This document shows, piece after piece, positions 13,233 to 18,211 of a DNA stretch of 64,000 nucleotides (within the stretch, counting starts at the first letter, position 1; each line of letters begins with the position of its first letter). Source of the stretch: Modestobacter sp. VKM Ac-2985 (GTDB lineage: Bacteria > Actinomycetota > Actinomycetes > Mycobacteriales > Geodermatophilaceae); NCBI RefSeq assembly GCF_026967925.1, contig NZ_JAPVBI010000002.1:496001-560000 (forward strand), written 5' to 3'. The notes under the pieces are model-generated. The model did not search any database. It worked only from the letters and a program-made list of their open reading frames with translations, and was not told the DNA's origin. The position numbers and the translations under genes were made by a program.

Positions 13233-15887
13233 GTGAGCGCACCGGCACGGACCACCGCACGGTCGGGGTCCGGTCACCTCCTCGCCCAGCTGTCGGCGCA
13301 GGCCCGGCGCATGCTGCAGACCGAGTCGGCCAGCGCCGGCCTGCTCGTCGCGGCGACGGCGCTGGCGCTGGTCTGGGCGAACTCGCCGTGGGGCGACAGC
13401 TACGAGGCCTTCTGGCACACCGAGCTCTCCTTCGAGGTCGGCTCGGCCGGCGTCGCCATGGACCTGCGGCACTGGGTCAACGACGGCCTCATGGTGTTCT
13501 TCTTCTTCCTCATCGGCATGGAGGTGCGCCGCGAGCTGTCGATGGGGGAGCTGACCGAGCGCAGCCGGCTCTCGGTGCCGGCCCTCGCCGCGATCGCCGG
13601 GCTGGCGGTGCCCGCCGGCCTCTACCTCGCGATCAACGCCGGCGGCCCGGGTGCGCACGGCTGGGGCATCCCGATGGCCACCGACACCGCCTTCGTCCTC
13701 GGCGCGCTCGCGATCGTGGGCTCCCGGTGCCCCACCCAGCTGCGGGTCTTCCTGTTGTCGCTGTCGGTCGTCGACGACATCGGCGCGCTCACCGTGATCG
13801 CGGTCTTCTACTCCGACGACATCGACCTCCTCGCCCTCGGCGTCGCGGTGCTGTGCGTGGTCGCCTTCGCACTGCTCACCCGGCTGCAGGTGTGGCGCGG
13901 GCCGGCCTACTTCGCCGTCGGCGTAGTGATGTGGCTGGCGATGCACGCGTCCGGGGTGCACGCCACCATCGGCGGAGTGGTGCTGGGCCTGCTGGTCAGC
14001 GCCTACACGCCGCGGCGGCAGGAGGTGGAGTCCGCGGGCACGCTGGCCCGCGCCTTCCGGCAGGCCCCCGACGTCGCGCTGGCCCGGCGGGCGAAGCTGT
14101 CGGTGGAGCGGGCCATCTCGCCGAACGAGCGGATCGGCGCGCTGCTGGTGCCGTGGAGCGGGTACGTCGTCGTCCCGGTGTTCGCGCTGGCCAACGCGGG
14201 CGTCCAGTTCGACACCGAGCTGCTGGACCGGGCGCTCACCTCCCCGATCACCGTCGGCGTCTTCGTCGGCCTGGTCGTCGGCAAGTTCCTCGGCATCGGG
14301 CTGGCCTCGACCCTCGCCGTCCGCTTCGGGATGGGGTCGCTGCCGCCCGGGGTGACGCTGGCCGCCGTGTGGGGCGGGGCGGCGCTGTCCGGCCTGGGCT
14401 TCACCGTCTCGCTGTTCGTCGCCGACCTGGCCTTCGACGACCCGGCGCTGCGCGAGGAGGCGATGGTCGGCGTCCTGGCTGCCGGCGTCGTCGCCGCGGT
14501 GCTGGGCGCGGTCTGGTTCTGGGCGCTCGGACGGCGCTCGCCCCAGGTGGCCCGGACCGGCCCCCGGCAGCTGGACCCGCCGGTCGACCCGGCGCTCGAC
14601 CACCTGCGCGGCCGGGTCGACGCACCGCTGACCCTGGTGGAGTACGGCGACGTCGAGTGCCCGTTCTGCGGCCGGGCGACCGGGGTGGTCGAGGAGCTGC
14701 GGCACCGGTTCGGCGACGACCTGCGCTACGTCTTCCGGCACCTGCCGCTGCCCGACGTCCACCCGCACGCCGAGCTCGCCGCCGAGGCCACCGAGGCCGC
14801 CGGCGCGCAGGGCGCCTTCTGGACGATGCACGACCGGCTGTTCGCCCACCAGGACCAGCTGGAGGCCGACCAGCTGCTCGACCACGCCGCCGCGCTCGGG
14901 CTGGACCTCGGCCGGTTCGCCGCGGAGCTGGGCAGCGGCGCGCACGCGGCCCGGGTGCGCGCCGACGTCGTCGGCGCCGAGGCCAGCGGCGCGCGGGGCA
15001 CCCCGACGTTCTTCGTCAACGGCGTCGGCCACGACGGCCCGACCACCACCGAGTCGCTCGCCGCCGCCCTGGTCGCCTCCGACCCGCGCGGTCCGGGCCA
15101 CGGCAGCCTGCTGCCGGCGGCCGAGCTGGTCGCGCCGGCACGGTCGTCGGTCGCCCTCTCCCCGGCCGCCGAGCTGCCGGCGATCAGCGTGCTGCCCGGC
15201 GAACGCCTCGCCGAGACCCCGGACGACGGCTCCTCCCCGCGGCTGTCCGAGGAGCACGTCGCCGTGCTGCGGCGGGTGGGGCGCCGGCAGCGCACCGTCC
15301 GCGGGCAGGTGCTGCTGCGCTCGGGGCAGGCGGAGTTCGACTTCTTCGCCGTCCTCTCCGGCACCGTGGCGGTGGTCGAGGGGCCGCTGGACGGCGGGCC
15401 GGACGGCGGCAAGCGGGTCGTGGCCGTCCACGGGCCGGGCCGGTTCCTGGGCGGGCTGAACATGCTGGCCGGGCAGCGGCCGGTGCGTTCGCTGGTGGCG
15501 GCCGAGGACGGCGAGGTGCTGGTGCTCAGCCTGGAGCAGCTGCGCGCCGTGTTCACCCGCGACCGCGGGCTGGCCGACGTCATCACCCGGTCGTTCCTGC
15601 TGCGCCGGGCGATGCTCATCGGGCAGGCGAGCGGGCTGCGGGTGGTCGGCGACCGGCGCTGGCCGGCCAGCGCCGAGCTGCGCGCTCAGCTGGCCGAGGA
15701 CGGCGTGCCGCACACCTGGCTGGACCCGGCCGAGGACGCCGCGGCCGCCCGGCTGCTCGCCGAGATCGGCGGCGAGGAGGCGACCTCGCCGGTCGTGCTC
15801 ACCCCCGACGGTCGGGTGCTGGTCGAGCCGACCCGCGAGGAGCTGGCCCGCGCAGCCGGCGCCTCGCGCGACCTGACGACCACATGA
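13233..15887 (+). CDS. NhaA Na+/H+ antiporter fused to DsbA-like, cNMP-binding and thioredoxin-like domains
   Basis: 884-residue four-module protein in one uninterrupted frame. Residues about 1-440 are NhaA: the membrane antiporter with ATDTAFVLG and the ion-binding pair in SVVDDIGALTVIA. About 455-630 is a DsbA/thioredoxin module with active site C476-P-F-C479 and the cis-proline motif RGTPTFFVNG. About 670-800 is a cyclic-nucleotide-binding-type beta barrel (FDFFAVLSGTVAVVEG, GPGRFLGGLNMLAGQR); the usual glutamate of the phosphate cassette is replaced by glycine, so ligand binding is uncertain. About 800-880 is a thioredoxin-like segment (LRVVGDRRWPASAELRAQL) as found between the cNMP and reductase parts of actinobacterial cNMP-TrxB proteins, but no reductase follows. 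NhaA-DsbA fusions are known; the C-terminal pair is unusual. AGGAAG precedes GTG 13233. Its stop overlaps the next start (ATGA). Confidence 0.88.
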   Translation: MSAPARTTARSGSGHLLAQLSAQARRMLQTESASAGLLVAATALALVWANSPWGDSYEAFWHTELSFEVGSAGVAMDLRHWVNDGLMVFFFFLIGMEVRRELSMGELTERSRLSVPALAAIAGLAVPAGLYLAINAGGPGAHGWGIPMATDTAFVLGALAIVGSRCPTQLRVFLLSLSVVDDIGALTVIAVFYSDDIDLLALGVAVLCVVAFALLTRLQVWRGPAYFAVGVVMWLAMHASGVHATIGGVVLGLLVSAYTPRRQEVESAGTLARAFRQAPDVALARRAKLSVERAISPNERIGALLVPWSGYVVVPVFALANAGVQFDTELLDRALTSPITVGVFVGLVVGKFLGIGLASTLAVRFGMGSLPPGVTLAAVWGGAALSGLGFTVSLFVADLAFDDPALREEAMVGVLAAGVVAAVLGAVWFWALGRRSPQVARTGPRQLDPPVDPALDHLRGRVDAPLTLVEYGDVECPFCGRATGVVEELRHRFGDDLRYVFRHLPLPDVHPHAELAAEATEAAGAQGAFWTMHDRLFAHQDQLEADQLLDHAAALGLDLGRFAAELGSGAHAARVRADVVGAEASGARGTPTFFVNGVGHDGPTTTESLAAALVASDPRGPGHGSLLPAAELVAPARSSVALSPAAELPAISVLPGERLAETPDDGSSPRLSEEHVAVLRRVGRRQRTVRGQVLLRSGQAEFDFFAVLSGTVAVVEGPLDGGPDGGKRVVAVHGPGRFLGGLNMLAGQRPVRSLVAAEDGEVLVLSLEQLRAVFTRDRGLADVITRSFLLRRAMLIGQASGLRVVGDRRWPASAELRAQLAEDGVPHTWLDPAEDAAAARLLAEIGGEEATSPVVLTPDGRVLVEPTREELARAAGASRDLTTT

Positions 15888-16885
15888 GGTCACTCGACGA
15901 GGAGCTCGACGACCTGGCCGACCACTACCGGTGGTTCGCCCAGGTGGAGGCCGCGCCGCTCTCGCCGCGGTACGCCGAGCTGGCCGCCGCGGTGGCGGAG
16001 GACGCCGACGTGCTGGCCTTCCTCGGCACCCTGCCGCCCCCGAAGCGGCAGGCCAACCTGCTGCTGGGCGCGCTCCAGTACCTGCACGGCGGCCCGCCGG
16101 CGGACGGTGCGGAGCTGCGCGACCGGGTGCTGGGCGACGCCGAGCGGCTGCGGGCGACGATGCTCACCCGGGCCACCCAGACCAACGAGGCCGCCCGCTG
16201 CGCGGCTCTGCTGCCGGTGCTGGCCGGCCTGCCGGGGCCGCTGGCGCTGATCGAGGTGGGCGCGTCGGCCGGGCTGTGCCTGTACCCGGACCGGTACGGC
16301 TACGAGTACGACGACGGAGTACGGGTCGGGCCCGCGTCGAGTCCGGTGCAGCTGCGGTGCGAGGTGACCGGCCGGGGGCCGGTGCCGAGCGGGGTGCCGC
16401 AGGTGGTGCGGCGGGCGGGCATCGACCTGAACCCGCTCGATCCCGCGGCCCCCGACGACGTCGCCTGGCTGCGGGCGTTGATCTGGCCGGGGATGGAGGA
16501 GCGGCGCGACCGGCTCACCGCCGCGGCCGCCATCGCCGCCCGGGAACCCGTGTCGATCGTCCGCGGTGATCTGGTGGCCGAACTGCCCGGCCTGGTCGCC
16601 GCGATGCCGGCCGAGGCCACCGTCGTCGTCTTCCACACCGCGGTGCTGGCCTACCTGCCGGCGGCGGCGAAGGAGGCGTTCACCGAGCTGGTCGCCGGGC
16701 TCCCGGTGCGCTGGGTCTCCCAGGAGGGGGCAGGCGTGCTGCCCGCCGTCCGCGACCGGCTGCCCGAGCCACCGGCGGCCGACGAGGCCCGGTTCCTGCT
16801 GGCCCTGGACGGCGAGCCGCTGGCCTGGACCGCCGCCCACGGCGGCCGCATCGACTGGCTACCCACCGCCGCCCTCAGGCGTTGA
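15884..16885 (+). CDS. DUF2332 family protein
   Basis: 333-residue soluble protein of the actinobacterial DUF2332 family, function unknown. The start is translationally coupled to the NhaA fusion by an ATGA overlap. Visible features: an N-terminal helical segment (DEELDDLADHYRWFAQVEA), a glycine-rich stretch ALIEVGASAGLCLYPDRYGY near residue 120 that resembles a methyltransferase motif I, RAGIDLNPLDP, and ATVVVFHTAVLAYLP near 250. The methyltransferase-like fold is my inference from these motifs. Operon context suggests a role linked to ion or redox stress. Confidence 0.87.
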   Translation: MRSLDEELDDLADHYRWFAQVEAAPLSPRYAELAAAVAEDADVLAFLGTLPPPKRQANLLLGALQYLHGGPPADGAELRDRVLGDAERLRATMLTRATQTNEAARCAALLPVLAGLPGPLALIEVGASAGLCLYPDRYGYEYDDGVRVGPASSPVQLRCEVTGRGPVPSGVPQVVRRAGIDLNPLDPAAPDDVAWLRALIWPGMEERRDRLTAAAAIAAREPVSIVRGDLVAELPGLVAAMPAEATVVVFHTAVLAYLPAAAKEAFTELVAGLPVRWVSQEGAGVLPAVRDRLPEPPAADEARFLLALDGEPLAWTAAHGGRIDWLPTAALRR

Positions 16886-16948: not shown

Positions 16949-18211
16949 TCAGGCCGACCAGGTGGTGTTCGCGGGGCGGCGGTGGTCGATGGTGTGGGGC
17001 ACGAAGAAGGACAGGTCGTCGGTGATCAGCCCGTCGGACTCCCGGATGCCCAGGCCGGCGGCCTCGCCGTCGACGACCCAGGTGCCGAGCACCGGGTGGT
17101 GCGGGCCGTCGGGGCCGGCGAAGTCCGGGAGCGCGCAGAGCTGCTGCACGACCCAGCCCTCCGCGCCGTACTTCCCGCCGAGCGAGGCCAGCGGCTCGCC
17201 GCCGGGGGCGAACAGCTCGACGTTGTTGCCCTCCCGGCCGAACAGCGGCTTGCGGGCGTAGCCGGTCTGCTCCAGCTCCGCCGCCCGGGGGTCGTCGGCG
17301 AAGTAGGCGCGGAGCAGGTGCTTGCCGATCACCGGGTCGTCGGCGTAGCGCTGCCACAACACCGGCAGCAGGCCCTTGTTCGACCACAGCATCTTCCAGA
17401 TCGGCTCGATCCAGGTGGTGCCGTCGGGGGTCCACAGGTCGGCGATCACCGAGGGGCCGTACGCGTCCTCGAGCAGCCACTCCCAGGGGTAGAGCTTGAA
17501 GAGGACGTCGATCAGGTTGCCCTTGGGGTCGTAGAACCGGGCGTCACCGGTGTCCAGGGCGAGCTCCTCGGTGGTGAGCACCACCGTCTCGTAGCCGGCC
17601 CGCTGCACGGTGTCGGCCAGGTAGGCCACCGTCATCCAGTCCTCACCGCTGCGGTCGCCGTTGGTCCAGGCGAGGTGGACCCGGGGACGGCGGCCGTGCT
17701 CGGCCTCCCAGCGGGACAGGTTGCGCCGCCAGGCCTCGACCAGCCGGTCGTCCAGCTGGTTCCACTGGTCGCGGCCCTGGCCGGTCTCCAGGTGCCAGGC
17801 CCACTGCACGACCGCGGCCTCGACCAGCGAGGTCGGGGTGTCGGCGTTGAACTCCAGCAGCCGGACGGCGCCCTCGCCGTCCCACCACAGGTCGAAGCGG
17901 CCGTAGACGCTGGGCGGCTCGGACTCCCAGGTGGCCTTGATGACCTCGCGGGCGTCGCGCGGGATCCGCATCCGGTCCAGCAGCTGCTCGTCGGCGAGCG
18001 CCACGTCGCCGGCCTCCACGCAGGCGGCGAAGAGCTGGTCGGTGACGTCGGCCAGGTGGTCGATCTGGGCGGAGGTGAAGTCGTAGAAGACGTCCTCACG
18101 CCAGTACGAGCGGGTCTCCCCGCCGGGGACGGTCGTCTTGTTGTAGACCAGCCCCTGGCTCTCGATCTCGGCCTCCCAGCCGCGCCGGGCCGTGCCGTAG
18201 AGCCGTCTCAT
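16949..18211 (-). CDS. YgiC-like glutathionylspermidine synthase family ATP-grasp protein
   Basis: 420-residue protein of the preATP-grasp/glutathionylspermidine-synthase C-terminal family (E. coli YgiC/YjfC). Recognisable blocks: SYWREDVFYDF, YGRFDLWWDGEGAVRLLEFNADTPTSLVEAA split near residue 110-130, the ligase core IEPIWKMLWSNKGLLPVLW, and KPLFGREGNNVELF near 320, where ATP-grasp lysine and acidic ligands lie. The family is predicted to form amide bonds, but substrates of YgiC-type members are unsettled. Its ATG overlaps the stop of the upstream YgiB-like lipoprotein gene (ATGA), reproducing the ygiB-ygiC pairing of enterobacteria. Confidence 0.88.
   Translation of the reverse strand: MRRLYGTARRGWEAEIESQGLVYNKTTVPGGETRSYWREDVFYDFTSAQIDHLADVTDQLFAACVEAGDVALADEQLLDRMRIPRDAREVIKATWESEPPSVYGRFDLWWDGEGAVRLLEFNADTPTSLVEAAVVQWAWHLETGQGRDQWNQLDDRLVEAWRRNLSRWEAEHGRRPRVHLAWTNGDRSGEDWMTVAYLADTVQRAGYETVVLTTEELALDTGDARFYDPKGNLIDVLFKLYPWEWLLEDAYGPSVIADLWTPDGTTWIEPIWKMLWSNKGLLPVLWQRYADDPVIGKHLLRAYFADDPRAAELEQTGYARKPLFGREGNNVELFAPGGEPLASLGGKYGAEGWVVQQLCALPDFAGPDGPHHPVLGTWVVDGEAAGLGIRESDGLITDDLSFFVPHTIDHRRPANTTWSA

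Follow-up and report, generated by a model that had tools for sequence, protein, structure and literature searches.

The window analyzed here is a stretch of 64,000 nucleotides from Modestobacter sp. VKM Ac-2985, a soil actinobacterium of the Geodermatophilaceae (assembly GCF_026967925.1, contig NZ_JAPVBI010000002.1, positions 496,001 to 560,000), and coordinates given below are positions within it. Its forward strand carries, at 13233 to 15887, an open reading frame that begins with GTG, encodes 884 amino acids with no internal stops, and joins four modules in one chain: an NhaA Na+/H+ antiporter, a DsbA-like domain, a cyclic nucleotide monophosphate (cNMP)-binding-type beta barrel, and a glutaredoxin-like end domain. 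The initial annotation, made from the sequence alone, had claimed four modules in one uninterrupted frame, and this claim is upheld by the reading frame, by Pfam and NCBIfam matches, and by profile comparison; its reading of the domains was right when the 884-residue protein was subjected to a domain search. In a survey of 112 genomes of the same family, 53 were found to carry four-module proteins (54 in total, counted by eye from the listing of matches), each in a single stop-free frame. We considered and rejected an assembly or frameshift artefact: the stretch from residue 620 to residue 680, singled out beforehand as the place where such a break might lie, is crossed in one open frame by all 54 proteins. 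The four-module fusion is real, as attested by these uninterrupted frames together with ratios of nonsynonymous to synonymous substitution rates (dN/dS) below 1 for each module in all 17 pairs of proteins compared.

Domain organization of the fusion protein

The antiporter domain comprises residues 26 to 428 (13308 to 14516, forward strand) and matches the Pfam family Na_H_antiport_1 (PF06965) with an E value of 1.3e-136. It passes curated cutoffs with 455.8 bits for PF06965 (cutoff, 23.5) and 350 bits for TIGR00773 (cutoff, 254), and by sequence the fusion protein is an NhaA-type Na+/H+ antiporter. Residues D151, D181, D182, and K351 are invariant in 23 aligned full-length rows, and we take D151, D181/D182, and K351 to be the equivalents of the transport residues D133, D163/D164, and K300 of Escherichia coli NhaA. 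When aligned to the solved NhaA 7a0w, residues 28 to 255 and 293 to 430 form two blocks that correspond to its residues 8 to 237 and 243 to 381; the gap between them marks an insertion of about 37 residues (256 to 292; 13998 to 14108, forward strand) in what is, presumably by homology, the cytosolic loop VIII-IX. The solved NhaA proteins (1zcd and 7a0w) have the antiporter core and the transport residues in common with the fusion but lack C-terminal domains and have a shorter loop between the two blocks. The last helix of E. coli NhaA ends in the cytosol, where its C terminus lies, and because the NhaA module aligns with solved NhaA through this last helix, the tail of the fusion and its DsbA-like domain should be cytosolic as well. 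A second NhaA encoded in the same genome (L002; G000:C2:756496-757689) is 39% identical and has no DsbA tail in frame.

The DsbA-like domain, at residues 456 to 613 (14598 to 15071, forward strand), is recognized, at scores above the Pfam cutoffs, by Thioredoxin_4 (PF13462; E value, 1.1e-18) and DSBA (PF01323, residues 467 to 612; E value, 2.4e-15) and also has solved DsbA-type relatives. Its thiol-oxidoreductase signature is complete, in that both a CxxC motif (CPFC, residues 476 to 479; 14658 to 14669, forward strand) and a cis-proline segment (GTPTFF, residues 589 to 594) are present; C476 and C479 are invariant in 30 loci and in the 23 aligned rows, as are T590 and P591 in the aligned rows. 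Given that the glutaredoxin-like end domain has no cysteine, the DsbA-like domain appears to be the sole thioredoxin-fold module of the fusion that can perform thiol chemistry. Two free-standing DsbA relatives (L214 and L219) are 45% (69/153) and 51% (85/167) identical to the DsbA domain of the fusion, and no signal peptide was evident in either when judged by eye. The relative at L219:5559-6143 has the motif CPYS, in which the second cysteine is replaced, and lies beside a gene for a UBP-type zinc finger.

A variable linker (residues 614 to 668; 15072 to 15236, forward strand), which is the least conserved stretch after the N terminus, leads into the barrel and the helices that follow it (residues 669 to 797; 15237 to 15623, forward strand). 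Residues 690 to 776 match cNMP_binding (PF00027) with an E value of 4.3e-11 and 43.1 bits (cutoff, 27.5). An AlphaFold2 model of residues 668 to 884, based on 26 sequences and with a mean predicted local distance difference test (pLDDT) score of 83.3, contains a complete barrel and matches CRP (PDB accession number 4ev0; E value, 4.4e-10), and the 50 PDB matches listed for this model are all cNMP-type proteins.

Within the barrel, the phosphate-binding cassette FLGGLNMLAGQRPVRS (residues 738 to 753; 15444 to 15491, forward strand) has a glycine in place of glutamate. This replacement, already noted in the initial annotation (as FLGGLNML), proves to be fixed in the form of the fusion to which the window protein belongs (the window form), where it occurs in 33 of 33 distinct sequences as part of a stretch, FLGGLN[M/Q/L]LAGQ[R/P][P/A]VR[S/T], that is kept in all of them while much of the barrel varies. 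A second form present in the same family retains the glutamate in the nine sequences examined (FLGELDLF), and a divergent four-module protein from outside the family (L156) has FLGGLG. Because the cassette glutamate is missing, the window-form barrel is unlikely to bind cyclic AMP (cAMP) in the canonical manner, and the conservation of the altered cassette points to a different ligand or to a surface for contacts. The cassette arginine of 4ev0 aligns with P750 and that of 5h5o with V751, with the conserved R752 one or two residues farther on; the loss of this arginine is not certain, in that a shift of one residue could make R752 the cassette arginine.

The last module (residues 801 to 872; 15633 to 15848, forward strand) had been described as thioredoxin-like, a domain reading that holds with the correction that it is probably glutaredoxin-like (or mycoredoxin-like) and has no cysteine in any of 43 distinct NhaA-fused sequences. 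The mycoredoxin model TIGR02200 gives a weak match at residues 811 to 870 (E value, 1.2e-4; 22.4 bits, below its cutoff of 89.5), and an hhalign comparison of a profile of eight relatives with one of six single-domain CxxC glutaredoxin-like proteins, both small alignments, yields a probability of 98.2% over 61 columns. The AlphaFold2 model predicts the order beta-alpha-beta-alpha-beta-beta-alpha, which is that of glutaredoxins. The profile alignment starts just after WPAS (residues 810 to 813), and extending it would place WPAS at the position of the CxxC motif.

Relatives of the two halves

Each module and each half of the fusion is already represented in databases, and the protein is a variant of a known transporter. 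The first half recurs in NhaA-DsbA (NhaA-Thioredoxin_4) fusions, annotated as "Na+/H+ antiporter NhaA," which have the same two modules in the same order and are 38 to 58% identical to the window protein over about 560 to 670 residues but end after DsbA, with neither a barrel nor a glutaredoxin-like domain. A search of the phylum at an E value of 1e-130 returned 28 such matches in 26 of 396 genomes besides the window, all of which end at query residues 610 to 689, and all 28 loci are NhaA-DsbA only. Further NhaA-DsbA genes are found on plasmids of Aeromonas, Stutzerimonas, Pseudomonas, Rhodococcus, Streptomyces, and others. The initial annotation had raised the prospect of relatives that stop after DsbA and are followed by a separate cNMP gene, which is not the pattern: barrel, Trx (thioredoxin)-like, and flavin adenine dinucleotide (FAD) domain matches are absent from 30 of 31 NhaA-DsbA-only loci, inspected up to about 9 kb on each side or, for some, to the end of the contig. 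The exception is G234, a locus chosen because it had already been seen, in which a divergent gene with all three domains lies about 2 kb from the NhaA-DsbA gene; from this single case, we do not claim a general neighborhood link. In another genome (G073), a HAMP-HisKA-HATPase histidine kinase is encoded directly downstream of the NhaA-DsbA gene (L233:5061-6515).

The second half recurs in what we term cNMP-Trx-FAD proteins, which have the barrel followed by the Trx-like domain, as in the fusion (alignable over about 200 of 217 columns), but continue into a C-terminal FAD/NAD(P) domain and have no membrane transporter. This FAD/NAD(P) domain is absent from the 884-residue fusion, which gives no Pyr_redox match in Pfam up to an E value of 1. 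A search of 296 class genomes with the alignment of the pair (A1) gave a longer list of matches, of which the best 29 loci other than the window were taken: in 28 of these, the barrel and Trx-like domain precede an FAD domain, and the 29th is the gene of L156. Being found ahead of an FAD domain in other proteins, the pair behaves like a module that can be moved between chains. Among 32 distinct cNMP-Trx-FAD proteins, the cassette has glutamate in 24, aspartate in 1, and glycine in 4 (which entered through a scan whose pattern required glycine), with 3 falling outside the pattern. Their Trx-like part holds a cysteine somewhere in 13 of the 32, never as CxxC, so that we restrict the description "cysteine-less" to the NhaA-fused domains.

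Plasmid records name these proteins "FAD-dependent oxidoreductase" or "cyclic nucleotide-binding domain-containing thioredoxin-disulfide reductase." A CxxC motif is absent from the FAD part of 31 of the 32 (the exception, L058, has one 204 residues in) and from that of 10 of 11 Trx-FAD proteins without a barrel. We therefore refer to the cNMP-Trx-FAD proteins as reductase-like only, and the annotation of L037, L057, L181, and others as thioredoxin-disulfide reductases seems doubtful. Thus, the kinship that the initial annotation saw between the last two modules and a cNMP-thioredoxin-reductase protein is borne out, and the word "reductase" is not. As to the direction of change, the tail may have lost a reductase part, or it may have been acquired from another source.

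Distribution, selection, and history of the tail

The fusion is no one-off join of two proteins; it is a family-wide architecture that comes in two forms plus one outlier. We verified the domains in 44 of the 54 family proteins (30 window-form loci, 9 of the second form, and 5 more), and interrupted copies occur in three further genomes (G017, G032, and G038). Proteins of the same genus are up to 97% identical to the window protein; identity then drops to about 70% and, in the second form, to 52 to 55%. Database records assign the 24 named window-form contigs to Modestobacter, Blastococcus, a single Geodermatophilaceae bacterium, and a single "Bacillus" whose identity is unverified. The second form comprises 24 proteins, with 22 in group g4, one in group g12, and one as a second copy in G086, a genome of the window's genus that carries both forms (L011 and L182). 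Outside the family, one of the 29 class loci encodes a divergent protein with the order NhaA-DsbA-cNMP-Trx (G275; L053, the same gene as that of L156).

For 17 hand-picked pairs of the window form, dN/dS ranges from 0.10 to 0.32 for NhaA, 0.04 to 0.23 for DsbA, 0.09 to 0.48 for the barrel, and 0.06 to 0.69 for the glutaredoxin-like domain, with DsbA lowest of the modules in most pairs; the linker (residues 620 to 668) ranges from 0.15 to 0.78 in the 16 pairs that have a value.

Phylogenies of the two halves bear on how the tail was acquired. In the tree of the barrel and Trx-like domain, a weakly supported branch (76/35) separates the NhaA-fused rows from the rest, which leaves a single origin of the four-module protein undecided. 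In the NhaA-DsbA tree, which includes long branches, the four-module rows do not group: a single clade of all four-module proteins is rejected at a cost of 150 log units (approximately unbiased test, P = 1.3e-9), and a clade uniting the two family forms is rejected at a cost of 27 log units (P = 0.01), a value weaker than it looks, as the groups were fixed before a quick NhaA-DsbA tree and the tests were chosen after it. Because this tree rejects one four-module clade, the tail must have arisen repeatedly or had one origin followed by several losses, and either history fits the data.

Gene neighborhoods

Immediately downstream of the fusion gene lies a DUF2332 gene (15884 to 16885, forward strand; PF10094, E value of 4.8e-79) whose ATG overlaps the stop codon of the fusion (ATGA) and which is probably cotranscribed with it. 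It is followed by a glutathionylspermidine-synthase-type gene (GSP_synth; 16952 to 18100, reverse strand; E value, 2.8e-122). DUF2332 is kept only in part of Modestobacter: of 13 Modestobacter-type loci, 7 have it near the fusion, as against 0 of 20 others. Pyruvate-carboxylase-type (11/13), short-chain dehydrogenase/reductase (5/13), and GSP_synth (11/13) genes likewise lie near the fusion in Modestobacter-type loci and in 0 of the 20 others. We regard the neighbors of the window gene as not informative for its function. A frame of 911 amino acids overlaps the fusion gene on the opposite strand; it has no Pfam matches and was left aside.

The second form has neighbors of another kind. In 8 of 24 loci (in genomes G041, G042, G043, G045, G050, G056, G064, and G065), the fusion gene is followed directly, in the same orientation, by a gene for a receiver-Trx-FAD protein and then by one for a histidine kinase that has a cNMP-type barrel at its N terminus, a pair of neighbors that suggests a signaling context. 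The receiver-Trx-FAD proteins have a Trx-like middle domain, as does the fusion, and a receiver domain where the cNMP-Trx-FAD proteins have the barrel; they are presumably those known as "fused response regulator/thioredoxin reductase." At L181, this protein matches Response_reg (1.7e-12) and Pyr_redox_2 (4.1e-30), and the barrel kinase matches HATPase_c (2.2e-23) and cNMP_binding (6.5e-12). The resulting set of three genes, which share module types with one another, is present in L181, L183, L184, and L235 to L239.

Across the family, receiver-Trx-FAD proteins occur in 78 of 112 genomes (E value threshold, 1e-60) and barrel kinases occur in 71 of 112 (1e-40), usually side by side. At these thresholds, both are absent from the window's genome and from two near relatives that carry the fusion (G102 and G103), and the window fusion therefore cannot depend on either.

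DISCUSSION

The textbook transporter NhaA is best known to be controlled by pH, and the family to which the window belongs is known for desiccation and stress tolerance. The reading that we favor, with a probability of roughly 0.55, is that the fusion is an NhaA antiporter with a cytosolic regulatory tail responsive to redox state and ligands, which would couple sodium and pH homeostasis to the thiol-redox or stress state of the cell. It draws on the domain matches, the conservation of the modules and their dN/dS values, the invariance of the CPFC and transport residues, the alignment of NhaA through its last helix, the free-standing DsbA relatives with no evident signal peptide by eye, the portability of the barrel and Trx-like pair, the signaling neighbors in 8 of 24 second-form loci, and the acquisition of the tail by NhaA-DsbA through repeated gain or through gain and losses. 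The dithiol of the DsbA-like domain, lying in the cytosol, would sense redox state or pass it on, its CPFC motif being oxidized and reduced perhaps through mycothiol and mycoredoxin or an NADPH flavoprotein, and the barrel would bind a small ligand or a partner. Both events could alter how the tail is seated on the cytosolic face near the long VIII-IX loop, and its changed position might raise or lower antiport, perhaps by way of the 37-residue insertion. The cysteine-less glutaredoxin-like domain would be a connector that docks partners and takes no part in redox chemistry.

Several observations weigh against such regulation. The model of the full-length protein is poor (mean pLDDT, 52.6), such that contacts between its domains are not trustworthy; the missing cassette glutamate argues against ordinary cAMP binding; and conservation is lower in the barrel and Trx-like domain than in NhaA and DsbA. 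NhaA-DsbA proteins without the tail are common, and the tail is therefore dispensable for whatever role these have. As to genomic context, the neighbors in the window are not kept beyond Modestobacter-type loci, FAD, cNMP-barrel kinase, and UBP genes are found in 0 of 24 window-form loci with flanks of up to 5 kb, and the window's genome yielded neither a partner (receiver-Trx-FAD at 1e-60 or barrel kinase at 1e-40) nor any other full match to the barrel and Trx-like pair.

In one alternative, the modules are tethered yet independent, with NhaA performing plain antiport, DsbA performing membrane-anchored thiol chemistry in the cytosol, and the tail serving in docking or dimerization, none of them regulating transport. 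In its favor, NhaA-DsbA persists widely without the tail (26 of 396 genomes of the phylum, as well as Aeromonas and Pseudomonas plasmids), and in most pairs the lowest dN/dS is that of DsbA; it gives no reason, however, for a sensor-type pair to be gained and retained, and it leaves unexplained the kinase and receiver neighbors in the 8 of 24 second-form loci. We consider it a credible but distinctly less probable account. Less probable still is that the barrel and glutaredoxin-like domain are degenerate remnants, a structural or dimerization element that binds no ligand. The loss of the cassette glutamate in the window form, the uncertain position of the arginine, the lack of cysteine in the Trx-like part, and the greater variation of these two modules relative to NhaA and DsbA would all fit decay, but all 33 distinct sequences retain the motif FLGGLNxLAGQxxVR[S/T] amid a varying barrel, dN/dS is below 1, and the glutamate is kept in 9 of 9 second-form sequences.

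A location of the DsbA domain outside the cytosol, where it would make disulfides in exported proteins, strikes us as very improbable. Several of its solved relatives (BdbD and DsbA-type enzymes) are extracytoplasmic thiol enzymes; against this stand the alignment of NhaA through a last helix that in E. coli ends in the cytosol, the two free-standing DsbA relatives that by eye show no evident signal peptide, and the usually cytosolic location of cNMP-type barrels.

Returning to the regulatory tail, we can speculate on a more elaborate scheme, which we put forward tentatively and consider rather doubtful. The gating of NhaA would depend on two inputs, namely a dithiol switch in the cytosol and a barrel whose new conserved cassette, GGLNxLAGQxxVR[S/T], accommodates another ligand, with a cysteine-less connector that is found also in receiver- and cNMP-linked flavoproteins; kinase, receiver-flavoprotein, and antiporter would then belong to one redox-signaling kit with interchangeable parts.

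Plant SOS1 is also a Na+/H+ exchanger with a cyclic-nucleotide-type domain, and it shares this combination with SLC9C1 and with the fusion. Both SOS1 and SLC9C1 belong to another exchanger family, so any likeness to the fusion is at most convergent. The sperm Na+/H+ exchanger SLC9C1 has a cyclic-nucleotide-type domain and, unlike the fusion, a voltage sensor (PMC6052114, PMC10620091). Neither exchanger is known to have a thiol domain. Searches of open-licence literature turned up no paper dealing with the four-module protein or with NhaA-DsbA, cNMP-Trx-FAD, or receiver-Trx-FAD proteins, which does not prove that none exists.

In the fusion, a putative thiol switch and a sensor-type barrel are joined to NhaA and are under selection in about half of the family genomes searched. 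If the tail does regulate transport, sodium and pH homeostasis would be tied directly to redox state, and the protein would be a bacterial counterpart, in a different exchanger family, of ligand-gated exchangers such as SLC9C1. The fusion also offers a handle on the cNMP-Trx-FAD and receiver-Trx-FAD proteins.

The cNMP-Trx-FAD genes have a recurrent partnership of their own, in that genes for UBP-type zinc fingers lie close to 12 of 19 of them (L158, L160 to L165, L167 to L169, L174, and L175; Pfam zf-UBP, 4.2e-13 for one). Zinc-finger genes of this type are also neighbors of the free-standing DsbA genes (L214 and L219), and in one second-form gene set (L237) such a gene lies next to the kinase.

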